A stretch of DNA of 20,245 nucleotides, from positions 1-20,245 of the IMG/VR virus record IMGVR_UViG_3300012950_000033, one strand, 5' to 3'. The position numbers and the translations under genes were made by a program. The notes under the pieces are model-generated. The model did no database searches. It worked only from the letters and a program-made list of their open reading frames with translations, and was not told the DNA's origin. Origin of the DNA: a virus. Every line of letters starts with the position of its first letter. The stretch's first letter is position 1. Shown here piece after piece: positions 2,657-11,057 of this stretch.

Positions 2657-3784
2657 TTATTTTATTCCAGCTAATCTCTTCATTCGATCTTGGAAAGGAT
2701 CGGATGAAGGCTTCTCTGCGCGAGAAGCACGAATTACAGAAGAACGACGAGTAATTGCCTCGCTCAGCGATTGTGGGCTCTTTTTAGGAGTAGCCTGCGC
2801 TGTGCTTTGAAGCGTATCAAAAATTGTCCTTGCTTCCATAACTGAACCAGCACGTGAAATAGCTTCAACAATCGTTTCCTTTTGTCGCTCATTTAAGGAG
2901 GTATTTCTCAATACACGGTTCGTGTAGAGCAAGCGAGCATTGGAAAGATTTACATCTTGTAAACCTTCTTTCAGATCATTTGTTGCTTGCTTATATTGTT
3001 TGTTTTGCTCTTTAAGTTGTTTATTCTCAAAAACTAACTCTTCTTGAGCTTTTTTCAAATCTTTTAATTCTTCGGCCACTTCCGTACTGCGACGGTGGGC
3101 CATCTCTAATTCCATCTCATGCTTTTGTTCGGCGGATGATCGGCCGGCCCAGCCGGCCAAATCGGCGCCCATATCAACTGTTAATGTTTCTGCGATTGAA
3201 GCAACAAGGCCGTCTAGATCAATCTCCTCATCAATAACTGGTTCTTCCATCTGAAGATTTTCATCTTCATCAGTCTCGGCTGATTGGCCGGTGGCGGGGG
3301 TACCTACATCGATGTGCTCATCTTCTTCTGCAAGCATCTCTACGATGTCAGTTGCATCAAATTCATATTCTTGGCCCTCTTCAAGGGTGTTTGACAATTC
3401 CTTAATTGCTTCTTCGAGGGCGCCCAAATTTAAGTCAAATTCTGTGGGAGTTCCTTCTGCGGGGTTTCCAATTAAATTGTCTGCGGCGGCGAATGGGATC
3501 TCTTCGTCCGGATCGATATCTTCGGGGGGATCGCCGGCGAGGTCTGCAGCTATCGGATCTCCGGGTGTCTCCATGCCGCCAATATCGTCGACGGCAGGAT
3601 CCTCTTCGGCCCCCAAGTCAAGGCCCAAATCGGCCGAGGCCAGATCGTCCTGTTCTAGAAGCCTGTCTAGAGTATCTTTAACTTCAGAAGAATATTTCTG
3701 AATAATTGCCGTTTCGGCATTCTTTAAGGCGGCCTCTTTGAGCGCCTTTGCATCAACGATAGCCTCGTTCAATAAATTAGACAT
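2657..3784 (-). CDS. gp22: Prohead core scaffolding protein, T4 gp22-like
   Basis: A 375-aa protein expected to form the inner scaffold around which the capsid protein assembles, and to be digested by the gp21 protease. Residues about 30-200 are strongly acidic and low in complexity (Asp, Glu, Gly, Pro, Ala). Residues about 215-290 form a charged coiled coil, followed by LNERQKETIVEAI, which resembles LTESQKEKVSALVEG of T4 gp22. Several [IL]-x-E plus small-residue sites are visible, including LLNE7 before A8, LKE17 before A18 and LSE before A near the C-terminus. Its position directly before gp23 matches T4. It is longer than T4 gp22 (269 aa), mainly through the acidic region. AGGAG precedes the ATG, and a candidate promoter lies about 30 nt upstream. 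Confidence 0.9.
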   Translation of the reverse strand: MSNLLNEAIVDAKALKEAALKNAETAIIQKYSSEVKDTLDRLLEQDDLASADLGLDLGAEEDPAVDDIGGMETPGDPIAADLAGDPPEDIDPDEEIPFAAADNLIGNPAEGTPTEFDLNLGALEEAIKELSNTLEEGQEYEFDATDIVEMLAEEDEHIDVGTPATGQSAETDEDENLQMEEPVIDEEIDLDGLVASIAETLTVDMGADLAGWAGRSSAEQKHEMELEMAHRRSTEVAEELKDLKKAQEELVFENKQLKEQNKQYKQATNDLKEGLQDVNLSNARLLYTNRVLRNTSLNERQKETIVEAISRAGSVMEARTIFDTLQSTAQATPKKSPQSLSEAITRRSSVIRASRAEKPSSDPFQDRMKRLAGIK

Positions 3785-3815: not shown

Positions 3816-3824
3816 ATAAATAGT
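3816..3824 (-). promoter_or_regulatory. Candidate late promoter for the scaffold-capsid pair
   Basis: The minus strand reads ACTATTTAT in an AT-rich context, about 30 nt before the scaffold start. It shares the ACTATTTAT core with the elements at 6501-6510 and 8459-8468 but lacks the following AGG. A small, weak hairpin (AACAC paired with GTGTT) just upstream, at about 3839-3850, may end the preceding gene. Confidence 0.45.
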
Positions 3825-3849: not shown

Positions 3850-4989
3850 TTATGAGCCCGACTTGTTTACAATCCACCAGCGGGAGCCATCGGATTGAAG
3901 GGTGCGCACGGAGTAATTGGACTTTATCTGTATTTCTCTTGTGAAATCCATCAGGGCGCTCTCGCATCTAATCTTTAAATAATAGGCCGAAACAAACTTG
4001 AATTTTTCCTCTTCTCTGCAGATTTTCTTAATTGTTATGATCCGCCCAACATTATCTTTAGGGGGCGGCAGCGATATTGTAATATGATTGTTAGATGTAT
4101 CCGCCAATATTGTGTTGTCGGCCTCTATAATCTCACACTGTGCTTCTTTGACCGTGCGAATGCTTCTGTACAGGGCTCCATTTATTTCTAAGTCGCCATT
4201 GGCTTGTAAGTTACGATCAAATTGACCATCTAATGCCTTCATGCGGCCTCGCACGGATAATAATTTACTTTTCGAATCATATGTAAATTCTTCACATCCA
4301 CCAAGCTTTTGAGAATTGTTATATTGAACCGCATTCTTGCCTCCACTTGCTGCTGGTGTTTTTAAAACCAGATAGCCCTCATATAAATCTTTCAAAGTCG
4401 TGTGTCTGACTTGTGCTCTGTCTGCATCGTGAACCAAAAGGAGATCTACATCTGATAAGCTCTGGCCTCTTTGTTGAACGTCTAAAGAACTCAACATATC
4501 TACACAAAGCCGACCTCCTTGGAAGCCCAATCCAGAGTTAGGGTGCACAACAACGGCAACGCCATCTTCTGCAACTTTAACGCCATCGCCAGTATTCACA
4601 TCCAATACTGTGTCTTTGTGGCATAAGAGGCCGCTTCCGTAATTTATTGAACGACCAGGAATTTTTCCTAATATATGGTTGGCCGGTACGTCATATAGTC
4701 CGGTGGCGGATCCGCTCATACATCTGGCGCGTATGATTGGGGCCTCAAAAACTTTTCCGTCAAAGGACAAGATACGACTACTTTTAGCCACGTTGCCTCC
4801 CTCGTACACTAAAACACCACCAGTGATGTCGCTTGACAATTGCCGAATGGCGACGTTATCTTCTACCGCACATCTACTCTGACGGGTGCTATCATAAAAC
4901 GAGCTAGCACTCAACGAACCATCAATTCTCTGATTCCCTGTTTCGCCAACTATATCAGGCACTTTTCCTCTTTTAATATTATAAGCCAT
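3850..4989 (-). CDS. Fibre- or decoration-like virion protein (379 aa)
   Basis: I do not recognise a named family. The protein begins MAYNIKRGK, sharing the MAY[NK] start with the genes at 6587-7216 and 5086-6405. It contains GSLSASSFYDS near residue 25-35, similar to AISASVFYGDG and AISASSYHVK in its neighbours. The C-terminus has SLPPPKDNVGRIITIKK and ends SDGSRWWIVN, a layout typical of phage fibre or spike end domains (strand, Leu-Pro turn, closing aromatic strand). The centre includes DLLLVHDADRAQVRHTTLKDLYEG, which resembles fibre passages placed before the end domain. Start 4989 is supported by GGAGAG at good spacing. It has its own candidate promoter (5005-5014) after a strong terminator. 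Attachment to the head is inferred from the location; a tail fibre or spike is the alternative. Confidence 0.75.
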   Translation of the reverse strand: MAYNIKRGKVPDIVGETGNQRIDGSLSASSFYDSTRQSRCAVEDNVAIRQLSSDITGGVLVYEGGNVAKSSRILSFDGKVFEAPIIRARCMSGSATGLYDVPANHILGKIPGRSINYGSGLLCHKDTVLDVNTGDGVKVAEDGVAVVVHPNSGLGFQGGRLCVDMLSSLDVQQRGQSLSDVDLLLVHDADRAQVRHTTLKDLYEGYLVLKTPAASGGKNAVQYNNSQKLGGCEEFTYDSKSKLLSVRGRMKALDGQFDRNLQANGDLEINGALYRSIRTVKEAQCEIIEADNTILADTSNNHITISLPPPKDNVGRIITIKKICREEEKFKFVSAYYLKIRCESALMDFTREIQIKSNYSVRTLQSDGSRWWIVNKSGS

Positions 4990-5004
4990 TAATCTGCTCT
5001 CCGT

Positions 5005-5014
5005 AGTAAATAGT
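5005..5014 (-). promoter_or_regulatory. Candidate late promoter (ACTATTTACT)
   Basis: The minus strand reads ACTATTTACT between the terminator at 5019-5052 and the gene starting at 4989. It keeps the ACTATTTA core of the other elements. The terminator immediately upstream makes a fresh promoter here necessary. The predicted leader is very short, with the Shine-Dalgarno only a few bases downstream. Confidence 0.45.
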
Positions 5015-5018
5015 TAAT

Positions 5019-5052
5019 AAAAAAAAGGATGCCCCCCAATTGAGGGGCATCC
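5019..5052 (-). terminator. Strong Rho-independent terminator after the 439-aa gene
   Basis: The minus strand forms a perfect 9-bp stem, GGATGCCCC with GGGGCATCC, around an 8-nt loop and followed by eight T. This is the clearest intrinsic terminator in the window. Confidence 0.93.
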
Positions 5053-5059
5053 AGACAAG

Positions 5060-5077
5060 AACCAAGAAAACTTGGTT
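5060..5077 (-). terminator. Second hairpin just after the stop of the 439-aa gene
   Basis: AACCAAG and CTTGGTT form a 7-bp stem with a TTTT loop on the minus strand, between the stop at 5086 and the main terminator. It lacks a long T run and may stabilise the mRNA 3' end or assist termination. Confidence 0.55.
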
Positions 5078-5085
5078 AAGATTGA

Positions 5086-6405
5086 TTAGACAATTCGCCA
5101 GTCGTTGGCAACAACATAGACGAAAGTAATAGCACCAAAAGGTGACTCAAGACGAACAGTCTCGTGTTCTTTATCAATTAAATGTGAGCCGGCACAGGTG
5201 ACCGCAACATAGTTTGTTGCAGATGCAGATGCGTGACTCTTTAAAGTAACAACATCGCCGACGTCTGGTGAAGCCGGAAGCGTTACGGCGTGAGAAGCTG
5301 TCAAAGCTGCAGCAACATAGTTATAGCCCTCTACGAGTGCTTTACCGCTATATGCCGTGGTGACAGCACCACCGTCGGTAGAAAGCACACCAGCGGTAGC
5401 AGTAATACCAGCACCGGCCATTGCAGATGCAAGGTCGGCGAAGGTATCTCTACGAACTTTGCCACTGGTGACATCTAAGAAGTATATACTATCAGCACCA
5501 ACCGCAACCGCATGATCAGATGCGCCAGAAAGAGCAACATCACCCGAAAGCAATGTTCCTTCAGTGATGGTCAGATCATTCGCTGTCAACTGGCCTGAAC
5601 CTGAAATACCTGCTGCGCTAAGTCCTTGGGTAACAACAGCACCTTCGTTGCTGACAGTAAAGACACTTTGGCCAACATTAAGCCCGTAAAGAGTTGCTGT
5701 TCCAGAACCTGAAATAACGCCTGTTGCGCTAAGTCCTTGGGTAACAACAGCACCTTCGTTGCTGACAGTAAAGACACTTTGGCCAACATTAAGCCCGTAA
5801 AGAGTTGCTGTTCCAGAGCCGGAAAGAACAGTAGCAGCTGCGCTACCAGCAATAGTTAACGCACCGTCAGCCAATGTAAGCAAGTCAGTATCAGAGTCAC
5901 AACCAATGGTTGAGCCATCGTCTACTAACAAGCTCTTAAGGGCGGTATCACCATCAGCGTCGACTGTAAAGCCGGGCATTGTGATTGTAGCCATGGTAAG
6001 GTCACCCGCACCATCCAAGTTATCCACACCAGCGACGTTACCAGCAACCGTTAAAGCACCACCGAGGTGGGCGCCGATGCCGGCAGAAGCCGTAAGCGTC
6101 TTTCCGAGTAGAATGCTCTCGCTACTGTTAGTGGTAACGAACTTCAGATAGTCGTTGCCGCCCTGTTCAATTGTCAATGCTTCTGCCAAGTTGTCAGTAA
6201 GCTGAATTTTGTTTGTGGCAGTCGATCCGCTGAACTCAATCTTCAGTCCATCAGATGCATCAGCAACACCGATGCTATCAGCATAGATCGCTCCAACATT
6301 TGTGAGGTTTCCATCTTGGAAATCGCCCGACGTGAATTTACCGGGACCGCGCGCCTCTAAGGAGCCGCTGTAAAGACCAGCCCCAATTTGAAATTTATAA
6401 GCCAT
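5086..6405 (-). CDS. Repetitive fibre- or decoration-like virion protein (439 aa)
   Basis: A Gly/Ala/Thr/Ser/Asp-rich protein starting MAYKFQIGAGLYSGSLEA, built of short beta-strand repeats (for example GALTVAGNVAGVDNLDGAG, TDLLTLADGALTIAGSA). Residues about 197-270 contain a 37-aa unit, including LYGLNVGQSVFTVSNEGA, duplicated in tandem. The C-terminal domain (LPASPDVGDVVTLKS, then VRLESPFGAITFVYV, ending NDWRIV) is clearly homologous to that of the gene at 6587-7216 (LPVNLSVGDVVRVKV, VRLESPYGAVSLIYV, SYRIF). The two probably arose by gene duplication. GGAGGG precedes the ATG at 6405. The gene has its own candidate promoter, a structured leader and a double-hairpin end, so it is a single-gene transcript. 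The structure suggests a fibrous surface protein; head or tail location is not proven. Confidence 0.8.
   Translation of the reverse strand: MAYKFQIGAGLYSGSLEARGPGKFTSGDFQDGNLTNVGAIYADSIGVADASDGLKIEFSGSTATNKIQLTDNLAEALTIEQGGNDYLKFVTTNSSESILLGKTLTASAGIGAHLGGALTVAGNVAGVDNLDGAGDLTMATITMPGFTVDADGDTALKSLLVDDGSTIGCDSDTDLLTLADGALTIAGSAAATVLSGSGTATLYGLNVGQSVFTVSNEGAVVTQGLSATGVISGSGTATLYGLNVGQSVFTVSNEGAVVTQGLSAAGISGSGQLTANDLTITEGTLLSGDVALSGASDHAVAVGADSIYFLDVTSGKVRRDTFADLASAMAGAGITATAGVLSTDGGAVTTAYSGKALVEGYNYVAAALTASHAVTLPASPDVGDVVTLKSHASASATNYVAVTCAGSHLIDKEHETVRLESPFGAITFVYVVANDWRIV
5614..5817 (-). repeat. Exact 93-bp tandem duplication inside the 439-aa gene
   Basis: Bases 5614-5706 and 5725-5817 are identical on inspection, with a unit spacing of 111 bp (37 codons). 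The absence of silent differences points to recent duplication, gene conversion or slippage. The unit keeps the reading frame. Confidence 0.92.
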
Positions 6406-6473
6406 TTATAAAACCCTCCATATTATAGTTTTTTATGGTTTAAGGATAAATGCAGGTGCACCTATCCATATTG

Positions 6474-6497
6474 GAGAGCAAGATACAACTTGCCCTC
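6474..6497 (-). promoter_or_regulatory. 5' leader hairpin of the 439-aa gene
   Basis: On the minus strand GAGGGCAAG pairs with CTTGCTCTC (9 bp, one G-U) around a 6-nt loop. It starts 1-2 nt after the candidate promoter at 6499-6510, so it would lie at the mRNA 5' end. A 10-bp palindrome, AGGTGCACCT (6454-6463), follows in the same leader. The leader from promoter to ATG is about 95 nt, long for this region. Confidence 0.55.
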
Positions 6498-6498
6498 A

Positions 6499-6510
6499 CC
6501 TATAAATAGT
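6499..6510 (-). promoter_or_regulatory. Candidate late promoter (ACTATTTATAGG)
   Basis: This minus-strand element is the best example of the recurring motif. It lies in the longest untranslated gap of the region (6406-6586), upstream of a single gene. On the opposite strand it reads TATAAATA, the T4 late consensus, but no plus-strand gene follows, so the minus-strand reading is preferred. Between 6511 and 6586 I see no clear terminator for the preceding gene. Confidence 0.55.
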
Positions 6511-6586
6511 ATTTTCGGGCGCTGCGCATGTGTTTTTTTTTGAGCCGATCACAAGACTGCGTACGTTTTTACACATTTAAACAAAA

Positions 6587-7216
6587 CTAGAATATTCTGT
6601 AAGATCCGGAAGCCACATAGATGAGAGATACGGCTCCGTAAGGTGATTCTAACCTAACGGCCCCCACCCCATCGATATTGTGGCCTCCTTGTGCGGCAAT
6701 TGTAAGATGATTACCCGCACTAACGCCAGCAGAGACCTTAACTCTCACAACGTCTCCCACGCTTAGATTTACAGGAAGAAACCATGTCGCGGGACTGTCA
6801 AAAGTCGTCGTCGCATAGTTAAATCCAGCCGATAGTGTGTTGTTTCCGTCACCTATTCCTCGCACCGTCATGCTGTCAGAGGCGCTGGAGCCAGTAACTA
6901 TACCGCTTAACTTGCTGCCGTCGCCATAAAACACAGATGCGCTAATTGCGGAGCTAGCCGTTAAGTGGCCTGTTACAATTGCTGTTGAGCCGTCGAACGT
7001 AAAGTTTGATTCGCAAACTAGACTGTTAGCATCTCCGTTAACATTTGTCAGTATTGCGTTATTGGTAGCATTCGAAATTCTCGGGACGTTGACCACCGAA
7101 GCTCCATCAGATGTGCTTAAGTTTCCAGAAATGATTGCTGGGCTAGCACTCTCATACGGAATAATTCGCGTAGAGGGCGGGGTCATTATGGTGCCTGTGA
7201 GGACATTGTAGGCCAT
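6587..7216 (-). CDS. Fibre- or decoration-like virion protein (209 aa), paralogue of the 439-aa protein
   Basis: It begins MAYNVLTGTIMTPPSTRIIP. The middle carries LTASSAISASVFYGDGSKL, a motif type common in phage fibre proteins and echoed in the two neighbours. The C-terminal 65 residues (FLPVNLSVGDVVRVKV to SGSYRIF) align closely with the end of the 439-aa protein, including the RLESP[YF]GA core. It is Ser/Thr/Asn-rich, with no catalytic motif. GGAGGA lies 9-10 nt before the ATG at 7216. The gap to the upstream gene is 18 nt, so it is probably co-transcribed with the genes at 7235-8014 and 8014-8424 from the element at 8459-8468. The short form may be a minimal version of the family: anchor, linker and end domain. 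Confidence 0.8.
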   Translation of the reverse strand: MAYNVLTGTIMTPPSTRIIPYESASPAIISGNLSTSDGASVVNVPRISNATNNAILTNVNGDANSLVCESNFTFDGSTAIVTGHLTASSAISASVFYGDGSKLSGIVTGSSASDSMTVRGIGDGNNTLSAGFNYATTTFDSPATWFLPVNLSVGDVVRVKVSAGVSAGNHLTIAAQGGHNIDGVGAVRLESPYGAVSLIYVASGSYRIF

Positions 7217-7234
7217 ATGACATATCCTCCTACT

Positions 7235-8014
7235 TTAGAACACGAACCACTTACCGGATCCGTCGCAATACAAGTTAATTGCCCCCATCGTACCAGCAAG
7301 ATCATAATATGCATTACCATCTATGGTGTTTCCCGAACCTGCGGAGGTATAAACATGCACTGCGTTAGGAGAGCCACTGCGAGTTGCCTGCTCGTCTTTA
7401 ATAACTAAAAGGGCACCTTTCATTTCAGCAGATGCAGTGGGCAACCAAAGTTTAGTATCAACACTGGTGGCACAACCAACTATATAATCATCTCTGTGAA
7501 TTAAGAAACTATTATTTGGCGCGCCGGATCCGGTAACCGTTCTATATCTACCACTTAAACCTCTGACATGCACACGTTTTGGGTTAAAAGAAGAGCTAAA
7601 AATATATGCGGCGTCGAAATTGTACTCCTCGGCCTCGGGATTGTCTTCGCGATTAGTAGAGGCTGTTATGATTAAACTACCAGTTCTGATGTGGAGATCT
7701 TCATCGCTGTCGCCAAAGAACGTAGAACCAGAAATGTCCCAGTAAGTCTTCTGTTTAACGTGATAGGAACTTGCAGAAATTGCGCCTTTAACGTAGAGGT
7801 TACCAGTCAAAAACAACTGCGTATCAAGAGCCCCTAGGGTTCCGCCGCCTGCATTAGTATTTTTAAATGTAAAGTGGTGGGAGCCCGTTACCATGGCACT
7901 ACTGCTATAGAACATGACTGCTTTATCGGAGCCGTGAGAACCATTGGCTGGTCCTCGGGCGATTTCAGCAGTCGTACCGCTGCACTGGATATATGCCCAT
8001 CCCCACTGAGCCAT
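7235..8014 (-). CDS. Fibre- or decoration-like virion protein (259 aa)
   Basis: The protein starts MAQWGWAYIQCSGTTAEIAR. It contains LYVKGAISASSYHVKQKTYW around residues 73-92, where the ISAS[SV][FY] motif is shared with neighbouring proteins. The end domain contains LWLPTASAEMKGALLVIKD and closes with INLYCDGSGKWFVF. This resembles the widespread phage end domain in which a Leu-Pro turn, an IDG turn and a terminal aromatic strand recur. The ATG overlaps the stop of the upstream gene by one base (TAATG), so the two are translationally coupled. Sequence similarity to the 209- and 439-aa proteins is looser than between those two. A structural role is inferred. Confidence 0.75.
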   Translation of the reverse strand: MAQWGWAYIQCSGTTAEIARGPANGSHGSDKAVMFYSSSAMVTGSHHFTFKNTNAGGGTLGALDTQLFLTGNLYVKGAISASSYHVKQKTYWDISGSTFFGDSDEDLHIRTGSLIITASTNREDNPEAEEYNFDAAYIFSSSFNPKRVHVRGLSGRYRTVTGSGAPNNSFLIHRDDYIVGCATSVDTKLWLPTASAEMKGALLVIKDEQATRSGSPNAVHVYTSAGSGNTIDGNAYYDLAGTMGAINLYCDGSGKWFVF

Positions 8015-8424
8015 TAGCCTACTCCTATGGATCCAGAATAATTAGGGCCGTAACTGCCAGATGTTCTCTTGGACGGCACCGATGTGAGGCCAGCGACAAT
8101 ATCTACATTGTCGGATCCAGAGATCCATAATTGAGAAGTTTTAACCTCCAGCCTTAAGCTTTCTCTGCTTTTGCCAGATGCATCAGCTTTTCCAATAGTA
8201 AAATAATTACTGTTGCACACGCCAACTTTAGAAAACCCAACGCGGGCAGCATTAGAGGCATCATTGTTGACAACGACAACCCACCTAGTTACCGAGGGGA
8301 AAGTTACGTAAGTTGCGCCCACGGCATTTGAGCCGTTAATTGCGCCGCTGCAATATGGCTTGCCGCTGGCTTGATATGCTGGGACGTGGTTTAGGCCAGC
8401 CTCCATTTTCCATGAAACGCTCAT
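8014..8424 (-). CDS. Small beta-rich virion-like protein (136 aa), first of the fibre-like array
   Basis: It begins MSVSWKMEAGLNHVPAYQAS and contains VTFPSVTRWVVVVNN, ARVGFSKVG, SQLWISGSDNVDIVAGLTSVP and a Gly/Ser-rich tail. From memory, proteins with this LNHVPAYQ...AGLT pattern recur among structural genes of marine T4-like phages, but I cannot name a function. It could be a compact beta-sandwich decoration protein. GGAGG lies about 11 nt before the ATG, and a candidate promoter begins about 35 nt upstream, directly at the bS21 stop. It is therefore the likely first gene of a three-gene unit with the two downstream genes. The lack of the MAYN start and of the aromatic C-terminal strand sets it apart from the paralogues. 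Confidence 0.72.
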   Translation of the reverse strand: MSVSWKMEAGLNHVPAYQASGKPYCSGAINGSNAVGATYVTFPSVTRWVVVVNNDASNAARVGFSKVGVCNSNYFTIGKADASGKSRESLRLEVKTSQLWISGSDNVDIVAGLTSVPSKRTSGSYGPNYSGSIGVG

Positions 8425-8458: not shown

Positions 8459-8468
8459 TATAAATAGT
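8459..8468 (-). promoter_or_regulatory. Candidate late promoter (ACTATTTATA) after bS21
   Basis: The minus strand reads TGACTATTTATA, where TGA is the bS21 stop codon. The element lies 35-45 nt before the start at 8424 and marks the switch from the overlapping operon upstream to separately promoted genes downstream. Confidence 0.5.
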
Positions 8469-8713
8469 CATCTATTTTTTCTATTGCGCCTTTCTTGCGC
8501 TCTTTGTTTCTTGAGTAATTCTCGGGCCCGAGACCGCTGGGCACGTATTCTCTTTTCTTTCTTAGCAACAGAAGGCTTTTTATACCTTCTTCTATCTTTT
8601 GCTTGTTCGATAATTCTCTCTTTCTTTACTTTCTTGGAGAATTTACGTATCAGCCTCTCATTGCTGTTCCTACACTCTCTAGCGTGGACTATTACATTCG
8701 CTTTTCTGCTCAT
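8468..8713 (-). CDS. rpsU: Phage-encoded ribosomal protein bS21 homologue
   Basis: An 81-aa, very basic protein. After a short start it follows the bS21 layout: an I/V strand (VIVHARE), a helix like ALRRFKR (here ERLIRKFSKKVKKERI), then DRRRYKKPSVAKKEKR, matching the REFYEKPTTERKR region of E. coli bS21, and a long basic C-terminal helix. E. coli bS21 is 71 aa; the extra length is in the basic tail. bS21 binds the 30S platform near the anti-Shine-Dalgarno and helps initiation. A phage copy could replace or supplement the host protein late in infection. Its ATG overlaps the upstream stop (ATGA), so it is translationally coupled to a head-associated gene. Phage bS21 genes are known in other large phages. 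A generic basic nucleic-acid-binding protein is the alternative. Confidence 0.85.
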   Translation of the reverse strand: MSRKANVIVHARECRNSNERLIRKFSKKVKKERIIEQAKDRRRYKKPSVAKKEKRIRAQRSRARELLKKQRAQERRNRKNR

Positions 8714-9144
8714 TTCATTGCCTGCCAGATCTTGCCGACGCCGCCCATTAAAGAAGAAATATCTACACCAGCATCGCCGGCATCTCCCAGATCAACAGAT
8801 CCTGCTTTCGGGGAACCACTCGCGGCCTCAGACATCGGCTGTGTTCCTTCGAACAAATTAACACCATTATAGGCATCTGTGCCTATAGAATCCATAAGGC
8901 GACGGCGATGTTGGTTAATTTTAGCATTTGTCTCGCTGGTTTTACGACGGGGGGCCTGTCTTTCAGCAACAGGTGGTGAGGGTGGTGATCTTTGTTCGGT
9001 TCGGGTCTCCACAATAAGACTGCTCTGCATGCCTTTGGCCACTTCAGAAACCACATTGGATAAGAGGCCTTCTTCTAAAAGAACCTCGTGAATGCATTCC
9101 TTAACCAGCGGCTTAATTATCTTTTTTAAATCTGTCTTATTCAT
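8710..9144 (-). CDS. Leader-bearing conserved T4-like head-region protein (144 aa)
   Basis: The N-terminus MNKTDLKKIIKPLVKECI is a predicted amphipathic helix ending in VLLEEGLLS, where L-E-E25 before G26 fits a gp21 cleavage site. A disordered Pro/Arg/Ser-rich linker follows (residues about 50-75), then RRRLMDSIGTDAYNGVNLFE and a C-terminal segment with GDAGVDISSLMG. From memory, this combination is conserved next to the prohead protease in several marine T4-like phages, but its function is not known to me. Its position after gp21 suggests a prohead core or internal head protein, perhaps taking the place of T4 gp67 or gp68, which are absent by sequence. The ATG overlaps the protease stop by 8 nt. 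Function is inferred from location and the leader. Confidence 0.78.
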   Translation of the reverse strand: MNKTDLKKIIKPLVKECIHEVLLEEGLLSNVVSEVAKGMQSSLIVETRTEQRSPPSPPVAERQAPRRKTSETNAKINQHRRRLMDSIGTDAYNGVNLFEGTQPMSEAASGSPKAGSVDLGDAGDAGVDISSLMGGVGKIWQAMK

Positions 9145-9739
9145 CTAATATCTCGTTTAATAGCCTATTAATTCTGTCCGCCTTAGTAAAGACCTTGTTG
9201 TTAAAAGACTTGGCCTCCTGCATCATGAATGCGTTCGGTGTTGAAGGCTCCGATACGAAATCAAAACAAATAAGCTGAAAGTCGTCTTCTACAACTGTTT
9301 GGCCGGCGCTTTCGGTGACAGAGCCCATTCCACGGGAAGAAATTCCAAGTTTAACGCCAGATTCTACAAGAGATTTAAGTATGCCGCCCGCGGGCGTGTC
9401 GAGTACTTTAACCTTTCCCATCACATTTTTCTGATCCCACCACACATCTGTTACCATATGGGAAGCGTTCTTAAGATTGATGACTGAATCTTCGGGGTGA
9501 TCTAGTTCGCCGAGGGCGCGGCGTTCTTTTACTAGTTTCTGGTAATTTTTCATCTCGCGCACCAAGACGGCATGAGGATAAACTCTGCCATTGCCATTTT
9601 GAACGTCCGCTTCCTGTAATTTTCCTGATAAAATCATTCCTCCGGAGGCCACGTATCTCTTTTCCTCTTCGGTTAAAAGATCTTGACAAACGCCGCCTTC
9701 GCATAGTTCATAATATTCTCTTAAAAGTTTTTTACTCAT
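9137..9739 (-). CDS. gp21: Prohead core protease, T4 gp21-like
   Basis: A serine protease that matures the prohead by cutting scaffold, capsid and internal proteins after [IL]-x-E. I use the ATG at 9739 (200 aa, MSKKLLREYYELC), because an upstream in-frame start at 9862 would overlap the preceding gene by 110 nt. In this numbering SGKLQEADVQNGNGRVYP is the conserved N-terminal strand region, GELDHP carries the predicted catalytic His81, and GISSRGMGS holds the catalytic Ser at 134 or 135 with the conserved Arg after it. A later acidic residue around D160 (CFDFVSEPSTP) is a candidate third member. The length agrees with T4 gp21 (212 aa). A weak GGA precedes the start, 14 nt after the upstream stop. 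The C-terminal part may be removed by self-cleavage. Confidence 0.95.
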   Translation of the reverse strand: MSKKLLREYYELCEGGVCQDLLTEEEKRYVASGGMILSGKLQEADVQNGNGRVYPHAVLVREMKNYQKLVKERRALGELDHPEDSVINLKNASHMVTDVWWDQKNVMGKVKVLDTPAGGILKSLVESGVKLGISSRGMGSVTESAGQTVVEDDFQLICFDFVSEPSTPNAFMMQEAKSFNNKVFTKADRINRLLNEILDE

Positions 9740-9752
9740 TTTATCATATCCA

Positions 9753-11057
9753 TTAATTTTTGTATTCCAATAAAGCTTCTTTAAAGGCATGCTCCAGGAG
9801 GCGGGCCACTTGATCCTTTTGGCCTCGACGAACCATTTGTCTACGAAGGGCCTTTTTAACATACTTGGAAAATTTCTGAAAGCTACTTGGGCTGCTAAAT
9901 ATGTCTTTAAGCTTGGGATCTTTCTCTAATAAGTCCCTATTGTCTGAAATAAATCTCGACAAGATCTTATCAAGAGGAGAGGCGCCCGGGGGAGCTAAGT
10001 CTCTGATATCAGAACGAGCAGAGGCCTTGTCGGCTTTTTGTTGTTTTCTCCAATCAAAGCCGGCTTGATGGTACTTTTGGAAAAGCGCATGGTTTAGCAG
10101 GCTTTGCATTAGCTGCTCAATTTGATCGCGGGGAACATTCTCAAACTCTGTCTGGCCTTCAGGAGTGGCCACCCAGCCACCGATACGGGCTCCGGAGGCG
10201 CCGGTTCTTTTAGACCACTTCAGAATAAGCTCCCTGAATGCGTCGGGATCTCCCGATTTTGCGGCTCGATGCATAGCTATCACCATCTGGGCGCCGTGGT
10301 CTTTGGCTTGCGGGGATGCCTTATCTTTCATTAAACTTTGTAGCTTTCCGAGAATGCTCTTTCTAACTTGGTTGGTAATAGTATCCTCTAATAAAAGCTC
10401 GCTCTGATGCTCCATAACCAATTTGGAAACCATATCTAGGCCCTCGGCAACTGGAATTCCTCTTTGCTTAAAGTATTTCGCTAGGCGTTGTGCTAATTTC
10501 TGGGCTGTTTGCTGCGATATTCCTGTCTGCTTCTGCAATTGCATAAACAGAGGCTGCTCTCGGGCTCCTCCTGGCTCAGTCGATACTTTCTGCCTTCTCG
10601 TTAACGAAAGAGGAGTATCATCTGGAAGCTTTTGTCTATCGTCTGATGCCGGATCGCCCGCCGGATCGCCGGCCGGATCGTCGGGGTCGGAGCCTGGAGC
10701 GGGAGGCGTTTCGGATCCGGAAGGCCAATCTTCTCCTCTCAATACAGCAACGGTCAAACTATGAATACGATCAGCTACGTGCGCACTGTCGGACATAAGA
10801 GCTTTTACTCTATCATCGCCATCAAGATCAAGAGACACCATGTCCTTCTTAAATTCTTTTCGTAGCCCATTGTATTTCTGATGGAAAGTCTTCAAGATAC
10901 TAACCAGTTTTCTATCTGAGCCTCCCAAGCCGGAAGTAGGGGACGATGACCGATCTCCGACGGCGCCGCGGAGGCGCGCCATCTGTCGGCCAATAAAGGC
11001 CTCAGAGATTATCTCCCTGATCTGTTCTAGCTGTTCTTTCGTCAACTTGCTGTGCAT
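9753..11057 (-). CDS. Leader-bearing unknown head-region protein (434 aa)
   Basis: I do not recognise a family. Residues 1-19 (MHSKLTKEQLEQIREIISE) form a charged amphipathic helix ending in ISE19 before A20, matching the [IL]-x-E rule for gp21 cleavage. The body is mainly helical and very rich in Lys, Arg and Gln. A Pro/Gly/Asp-rich linker around residues 118-140 includes DPAGDPAGDPASDD, encoded by short GC-rich repeats at about 10645-10690. The C-terminal part (KFSKYVKKALRRQMVRRG) is strongly basic, which would suit DNA contact inside the head. AAGGATCTT, identical to the site upstream of the gene at 11414-11992, precedes the ATG. A packaged internal or core protein is inferred from the position before gp21 and the leader. 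Confidence 0.75.
   Translation of the reverse strand: MHSKLTKEQLEQIREIISEAFIGRQMARLRGAVGDRSSSPTSGLGGSDRKLVSILKTFHQKYNGLRKEFKKDMVSLDLDGDDRVKALMSDSAHVADRIHSLTVAVLRGEDWPSGSETPPAPGSDPDDPAGDPAGDPASDDRQKLPDDTPLSLTRRQKVSTEPGGAREQPLFMQLQKQTGISQQTAQKLAQRLAKYFKQRGIPVAEGLDMVSKLVMEHQSELLLEDTITNQVRKSILGKLQSLMKDKASPQAKDHGAQMVIAMHRAAKSGDPDAFRELILKWSKRTGASGARIGGWVATPEGQTEFENVPRDQIEQLMQSLLNHALFQKYHQAGFDWRKQQKADKASARSDIRDLAPPGASPLDKILSRFISDNRDLLEKDPKLKDIFSSPSSFQKFSKYVKKALRRQMVRRGQKDQVARLLEHAFKEALLEYKN

Follow-up and report, generated by a model that had tools for sequence, protein, structure and literature searches.

A variable array of predicted fibre genes in the head gene cluster of marine phages distantly related to T4

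The IMG/VR virus record IMGVR_UViG_3300012950_000033, with a length of 20,245 bp and called the window below, contains five genes, F1 to F5, which run from position 8424 down to 3850 and form an array among genes for head proteins. The original prediction had placed five open reading frames between gp21, together with two small genes, and gp22-gp23, and had proposed that they might encode a multi-component set of head fibres, expressed together with the capsid. The positions of the five reading frames were found to be correct, and the interval is syntenic across dozens of relatives, so that the arrangement is not due to chance. The array is carried by marine viruses that are distant relatives of phage T4.

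The locus and the shared end domain

The recognised genes of the window lie on the minus strand, as do the array, its flanking genes and its signals, and they follow the head gene order of T4, i.e., terL, gp20, several other genes, gp21, a gene for a 144-residue protein, the gene for the ribosomal protein bS21, F1 to F5, gp22, and gp23. F1 (8014-8424) encodes a protein of 136 residues, which is predicted to be a single jelly-roll beta-sandwich. F2 (7235-8014) encodes 259 residues. F3 (6587-7216, 209 residues) starts with MAYN and contains a SASxFYGDGS repeat, F4 (5086-6405, 439 residues) starts with MAYK and is a fibre protein of variable length, and F5 (3850-4989, 379 residues) starts with MAYN and has a shaft-like region at residues 120-184, which was detected by profile comparison.

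Four of the five proteins, F2 to F5, share one homologous C-terminal domain of about 95 residues, and F1 is without it. The domain comprises residues 170-259 of F2 (approximately), 114-209 of F3, 353-438 of F4, and, in a divergent form, 276-374 of F5. An iterated profile that was seeded with the last 97 residues of F3 recovered F2 to F5 of the window with expect values (E) from 5e-31 to 3e-18 (F2 1.6e-22, F4 2.4e-22, F5 3.1e-18), the match was always C-terminal, and neither a flanking gene of the window nor F1 was matched. An independent profile, built from 39 such domains, recovered the same four proteins and again left out F1; membership of F1 in this family was ruled out also by hhalign (probability 0.4%). 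It had been predicted that at least two of the proteins are paralogues with a common RLESP[YF]GA end. For F3 and F4 this was confirmed (BLASTP E 2.8e-15), and the kinship turned out to be wider, comprising four proteins instead of two. The profile alignment of F3 with F5 spans most of their length (probability 97.8%). Folds without relation to one another would have spoken against the prediction; those of F2 to F5 are related, but no homology links F1 to them.

Next, the domain was compared with solved structures. The domain profile matched the proximal subunits of long tail fibres of the gp34 type (9f4a, 1.4e-8; 9x3r, 8.8e-7) and the tailspike TSP4 of phage CBA120 (7rfo, 2.7e-4). When the predicted domain of F3 was superposed (VIA), Z scores of 9.3 for TSP4, 8.2 for T4 gp10, and 8.1 for T4 gp9 were obtained; it also superposed on CpaA and StcE, and on the C-terminal residues 214-289 of the capsid spike of phage Pa223 (Z 6.8). 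This test of a common fold was made with the modelled domain of F3, to which F2, F4, and F5 are linked by sequence homology only. The model has pLDDT (predicted local distance difference test) values of 86-94 for most positions between residues 141 and 209, falling to about 72 at residues 161-170; beyond the end domain it is unreliable and was left uninterpreted. The Pfam family T4_gp9_10_N matched 10 of the 39 domain members (best E 2.3e-4), the proteins of the window not being among them, and Pfam and PHROGs searches with F1 to F5 yielded nothing informative except for a hint to a tail fibre in the end domain of F4.

In the paper on TSP4 the domain similar to gp9, CpaA, and StcE is defined as XD1 (PMC8825819), and therefore the end domain of F2 to F5 is, by profile and predicted fold, of the XD1 type, like those of T4 gp9 and gp10, gp34-like fibres, and CBA120 TSP4. 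CpaA and StcE use XD1 for glycan binding, and in TSP4 it was described as a spacer of unclear function (PMC8825819). A docking function of the XD2/XD3 type, as in the branched complex of TSP4, was discarded, since the array domain is of the XD1 type.

The remaining parts of the proteins have features of their own. An M[AGS]Y start, by far mostly MAY, was found in 67 of 75 genes of the F3 to F5 type in relatives versus 23 of 1217 other open reading frames, and most of these 23 are array genes that the labelling had missed; thus the MAY[NK] start that had been noted in three proteins is real and not random. As predicted, three of the proteins, F2, F3, and F5, contain the [SA]xSAS motif, which belongs to a fibre repeat, SAS-FYGDGS-LTGI. 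As this repeat occurs also in fibre genes outside the array, the motif alone is weak evidence of kinship. F2 carries an N-terminal tag, M[AS]xFGWAYxxC, which is conserved in relatives. The profile of F5 matched the tail fibre 9qgo (4.5e-6), the Afp fibre AfpX13 (9e-4), and, weakly, adenovirus fibre (0.07), and a match to a shaft similar to the triple beta-spiral of the adenovirus/Afp type was seen in F5 only. The shaft-like region and the end domain of the gp34/TSP4/gp9 type support the predicted fibre nature.

The model of F1 shows, weakly, a single jelly-roll. Its best fold neighbours were SH1 (Z 6.2), PR772 and the turret protein of HFTV1 (5.8), and the cement protein of KHP40 (5.3), and unrelated jelly-rolls had similar scores. 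No known homologue of F1 was found, and direct tblastn searches of 50,697 phage records with F1, F4, and F5 gave zero matches.

The flanks of the array were assigned as follows. Upstream lie the prohead protease gp21 (9137-9862; Peptidase_S77, E 1.2e-30), the likely start of which is an inner methionine at residue 42, the conserved gene for the 144-residue protein (8710-9144), and bS21 (8468-8713; PF01165, E 4.6e-8). Downstream lie the scaffold gene in the position of gp22 (2657-3784) and the gene for the major capsid protein gp23 (802-2619; Gp23, E 6.2e-72), which has 605 residues with a long variable insertion. The next gene after gp23 (216-668) is kept in many relatives and has a weak match to XD1 (E 0.004, filters off); it is possibly another member of the array family.

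Gene order, copy number, and divergence in relatives

Two samples of relatives were used. The first comprised eighty relatives that were found through gp21, and the gene order was read as far as each contig extends. The order gp21, 144-residue protein, bS21, F1, F2, F3, F4, F5, gp22, gp23 was kept, with exceptions in the content of the array, and many relatives have an additional gene between gp21 and the gene for the 144-residue protein. The second sample was found through F1 and F5, and its contigs are partly shared with the first. Here F1 followed bS21 directly in 107 of 116 cases, and seven more were tandem copies of F1. Thus F1, almost always directly after bS21, is the most constant gene of the array.

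The copy number of the array, the comparison of which among relatives had been proposed with the original prediction, varies from two to seven genes of at least 100 residues, and the length from 1.3 to 7.6 kb, among 24 records, several of them near duplicates, in which the interval is complete. The smallest arrays consist of F1 and one further gene (L056, L057, L020). In the slot of F2 the N-terminal tag stays, and the remainder changes; in L020 this slot is occupied by a protein of 1473 residues with PKD/immunoglobulin (Ig)-like repeats. Such repeats were seen only there, and Pfam detected no Ig-like domain in F1 to F5 of the window.

The median pairwise identity was 48% for F1, 46% for F2, 51% for F3, 34% for F4, and 37% for F5, compared to 76% for the portal protein, 78% for gp21, and 57.5% for gp22, in a sample that was picked by gp21 similarity and thus favours gp21. 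The array diverges much faster than the neighbouring genes, and F4 evolves fastest. Relatives diversify by swapped middles, duplicated members, and gene gain or loss. The presence of the end domain in four of the five proteins, the variable copy number, the swapped middles, and the rapid divergence agree well with the predicted duplication and shuffling of surface modules.

The capsid protein differs between phages with and without the array. It has 587-624 residues in array-bearing phages versus 523-544 residues in the phages immuto, Mel-JY01, and RM378, the array status of the latter being taken solely from its annotation, and in a 484-kb phage. The extra residues of the array-bearing clade fall into a variable stretch, which is only correlated with the array and may be a docking surface.

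Sister phages differ from the array-bearing ones. The Flavobacterium phage immuto lacks the array and, throughout its genome, the domain as well. Shortly after gp23 it encodes a protein of 546 residues (L084:19973-21613) with tandem repeats that look Ig-like. In the Microcystis phage Mel-JY01, bS21 is present, and the array position holds a single unrelated gene for 388 residues (L085:12389-13555), in which neither an XD1 domain nor a Pfam family was found and which resembles an ADP-ribosyltransferase by eye only. The 484-kb phage has two fibre-like genes with similar starts just before bS21-gp22-gp23, one of which carries the only copy of the domain in this phage.

Transcription signals

In the window, the motif CTATTTA precedes F1 (8461-8467), F4 (6503-6509), F5 (5007-5013, just past a terminator), and gp22 (3817-3823). 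These are the window's copies of ACTATTTATA, which occurs throughout the clade. In relatives, the motif CTATTTAT is near-universal before F1 and gp22, and it is found also before F5 and sometimes before F4. Its distance from F1 is about 36-43 nt in nearly all relatives. In the second sample, F1 was preceded by the motif in 113 of 115 cases and gp22 in 99 of 105, and it was never found before gp21 (0/101), S21 (0/114), or gp23 (0/92). In 1.03 Mb, CTATTTA[TA] occurred 240 times on the gene strand, 133 times between genes, versus 14 times on the other strand, never between genes. On the large contig G001 it does not precede the genes for DNA polymerase, helicase, or reductase. Taken together, CTATTTAT is probably a late promoter, judged by its distribution. 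The T4-type late promoter TATAAATA was absent on the sense strand, its reverse complement forms part of the CTATTTATA motif, and sites with a sigma-70 consensus occurred at chance level.

An intrinsic terminator with an 11-bp stem and a run of eight T follows F4 (5027-5052). A strong hairpin and a T run at this place were found in 22 records including the window, and the stem shows paired changes (GGATG..CATCC versus GGGCG..CGTCC). Such sites numbered 32 in all, and four besides the F4 set follow gp23. Because the terminator after F4 is conserved, F5-gp22-gp23 appears to be a separate late unit. By position and conserved signals, the array is encoded among the capsid genes and has the control signals of capsid genes, so that the predicted late expression alongside the capsid gains support from the promoter-like motif and from the unit of F5 with gp22-gp23.

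Location of the fibres and comparison with known systems

F1 to F5 are very probably a set of virion fibres that is expressed late. Their location is the least certain part, for which the head is favoured with modest confidence. The best explanation overall, held at slightly better than even confidence, is a modular, late-expressed set of virion fibres that most likely decorates the head. The phages would thereby probably carry a coat of adhesive, exchangeable fibres on the particle, most likely on its head. F2 to F5 would most likely form trimeric fibres, each with a short conserved N-terminal tag as putative attachment end, a middle of variable length and sequence as shaft, and the XD1-type beta-domain as distal end, which might trimerise or contact glycans. 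F1 may be a small jelly-roll base or cement protein. The array would be produced together with the capsid, F1 to F4 upstream of the terminator and F5 together with gp22-gp23, and a head decorated in this way could adhere reversibly to cells or glycans.

Several points weigh against this explanation. Most proteins of solved structure that are related to the end domain belong to the tail or baseplate, and one is a capsid spike (Pa223); therefore, attachment to the head, though favoured, is unproven, and the location cannot be read from the domain, a fold found mainly in tail proteins but also in at least one capsid spike. On two large contigs the motif was also found before sheath, tube, and neck genes and is thus not head-specific, so that it cannot separate head from tail. 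The model of F3 as a whole is mostly of low confidence (mean pLDDT 59), and the structure models are of monomers only. The fold matches of F1 are at background level (Z about 6), and no family is therefore claimed for it. Genes resembling an array member, of the MAYN..KGP type, occur at loci outside the array (G001 70029-72092). In the literature, neither proteomics nor microscopy of a member was found.

The array could also encode tail, neck, or baseplate fibres, i.e., long or short tail fibres or whiskers, which bind receptors as in T4 and the Ackermannviridae and the genes of which have moved into the head cluster. This is possible but rather doubtful. The end domain is of the XD1 type known from gp9, gp10, gp34, and TSP4, related families are labelled as tail fibre or baseplate in PHROGs, the domain of the Pelagibacter phage Mosig sits in a tail-fibre cluster, and receptor-binding fibres typically have a fast-changing middle like that of F4. 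However, the array is not part of a tail or baseplate module. It lies between gp21 and gp22 in the window, and it is apart from the tail and baseplate module on large contigs; on G001 (196 kb) the baseplate wedge gene is at 21.5-23.3 kb and the array at 164-169 kb. All four copies of the domain on G001, and likewise on G003 (155 kb), are inside the array; G002 (203 kb) has five copies in the array and one weak copy in a distant fibre-like gene. Also F5 appears to belong to a terminator-bounded unit with gp22-gp23, and the same fold forms the end of a known capsid spike. Furthermore, the same genomes have, at loci outside the array, additional fibre-like genes that share the start or the repeat, which argues against a tail location of the array, and exchange between the array and these loci is therefore likely. 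Very large unassigned genes near the baseplate wedge gene (L088:8117-19927, 3936 residues; G002 78483-89666, 3727 residues) perhaps encode true tail-fibre or tail-tip proteins.

A more far-reaching version of the head explanation, which we regard as unlikely, is a previously undescribed multi-component adhesion organ on the head surface of marine T4-related phages. In it, F1 would provide the base, a jelly-roll seated on the capsid and perhaps docked to the enlarged insertion of gp23, and F2 to F5 would be co-assembled trimers with glycan-binding XD1 tips, derived from an XD1 module of tail fibres that was recruited to the head, followed by tandem duplication and swapping of middles. Another scenario, compatible with head or tail, is that F1 is a vertex or cement protein of the capsid, on which one or two of F2 to F5 are anchored, the rest being alternative, mutually exclusive tips of a swap cassette. 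F1 is constant while the others come and go, down to the minimal arrays of F1 and one gene, and several of the weak fold neighbours of F1 are viral penton/vertex, turret, or cement proteins. Yet these matches do not rise above background, and most relatives keep F2 to F5 together in the same order, which suggests joint use; the scenario is thus distinctly unlikely. That the proteins act outside the virion, as secreted or intracellular beta-proteins or as assembly aids riding in the late region, would fit the lack of proteomics and of a known homologue of F1 but is highly improbable in view of the fibre-type domain and shaft in F2 to F5 and of the late motif shared with sheath and tube genes.

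Taken together, the original prediction is partly supported. The types of modules are known, but an ordered, rapidly changing array within the head cluster is unusual. Head decorations usually consist of a single protein or two, and arrays of receptor-binding proteins are known from tails. If the fibres are indeed on the head, the head of a widespread group of uncultured marine phages would serve also as a tunable adhesion surface. In addition, the promoter-like motif and the conserved terminator offer a means to delimit late units in phages without a cultured host.

The array can be compared with several known systems. T4 gp9 and gp10, gp34-like fibres, and CBA120 TSP4 (PMC8825819) have the same fold and a detectable sequence kinship with the array domain, which has a trimeric context in those proteins; gp9, CpaA, and StcE, listed as neighbours of XD1 (PMC8825819), are all among the matches of the array domain. 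In the T4 and TSP4 proteins XD1 is N-terminal or central in tail proteins, whereas the array proteins, the products of four genes in tandem within the head cluster, carry it at the C-terminal end. In the capsid spike of Pseudomonas phage Pa223 (PDB 9ny6) the C-terminal end, residues 214-289 of 294, has the same fold, but no kinship was detectable in the sequences (9% identity over the aligned residues), so that the likeness comes from the structure library only, and no paper on this spike was found. The Ackermannviridae, with their branched complex of TSP1-4, are similar in having several trimeric receptor-binding proteins per phage and XD-type domains; in contrast, their tailspikes are tail-borne enzymes that dock via XD2 and XD3. 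Phages encoding bS21 (PMC9723584) also have this gene in a late context among terL, portal, protease, and capsid genes, but in the described lake phages it is on the opposite strand, whereas in the window it immediately precedes the array and shares its strand. The paper on Far-T4 phages makes no mention of tail fibres, gp21, or S21. If borne on the head, the array would resemble Hoc and head decorations of the phi29 gp8.5 type (PMC7602432) as a set of variable adhesive surface modules, and L020 resembles them in the PKD/Ig-like repeats of its F2 slot. It differs from them in that it comprises several different genes in a fixed order, that no Ig domain was found in the proteins of the window, and that its attachment to the head is putative.

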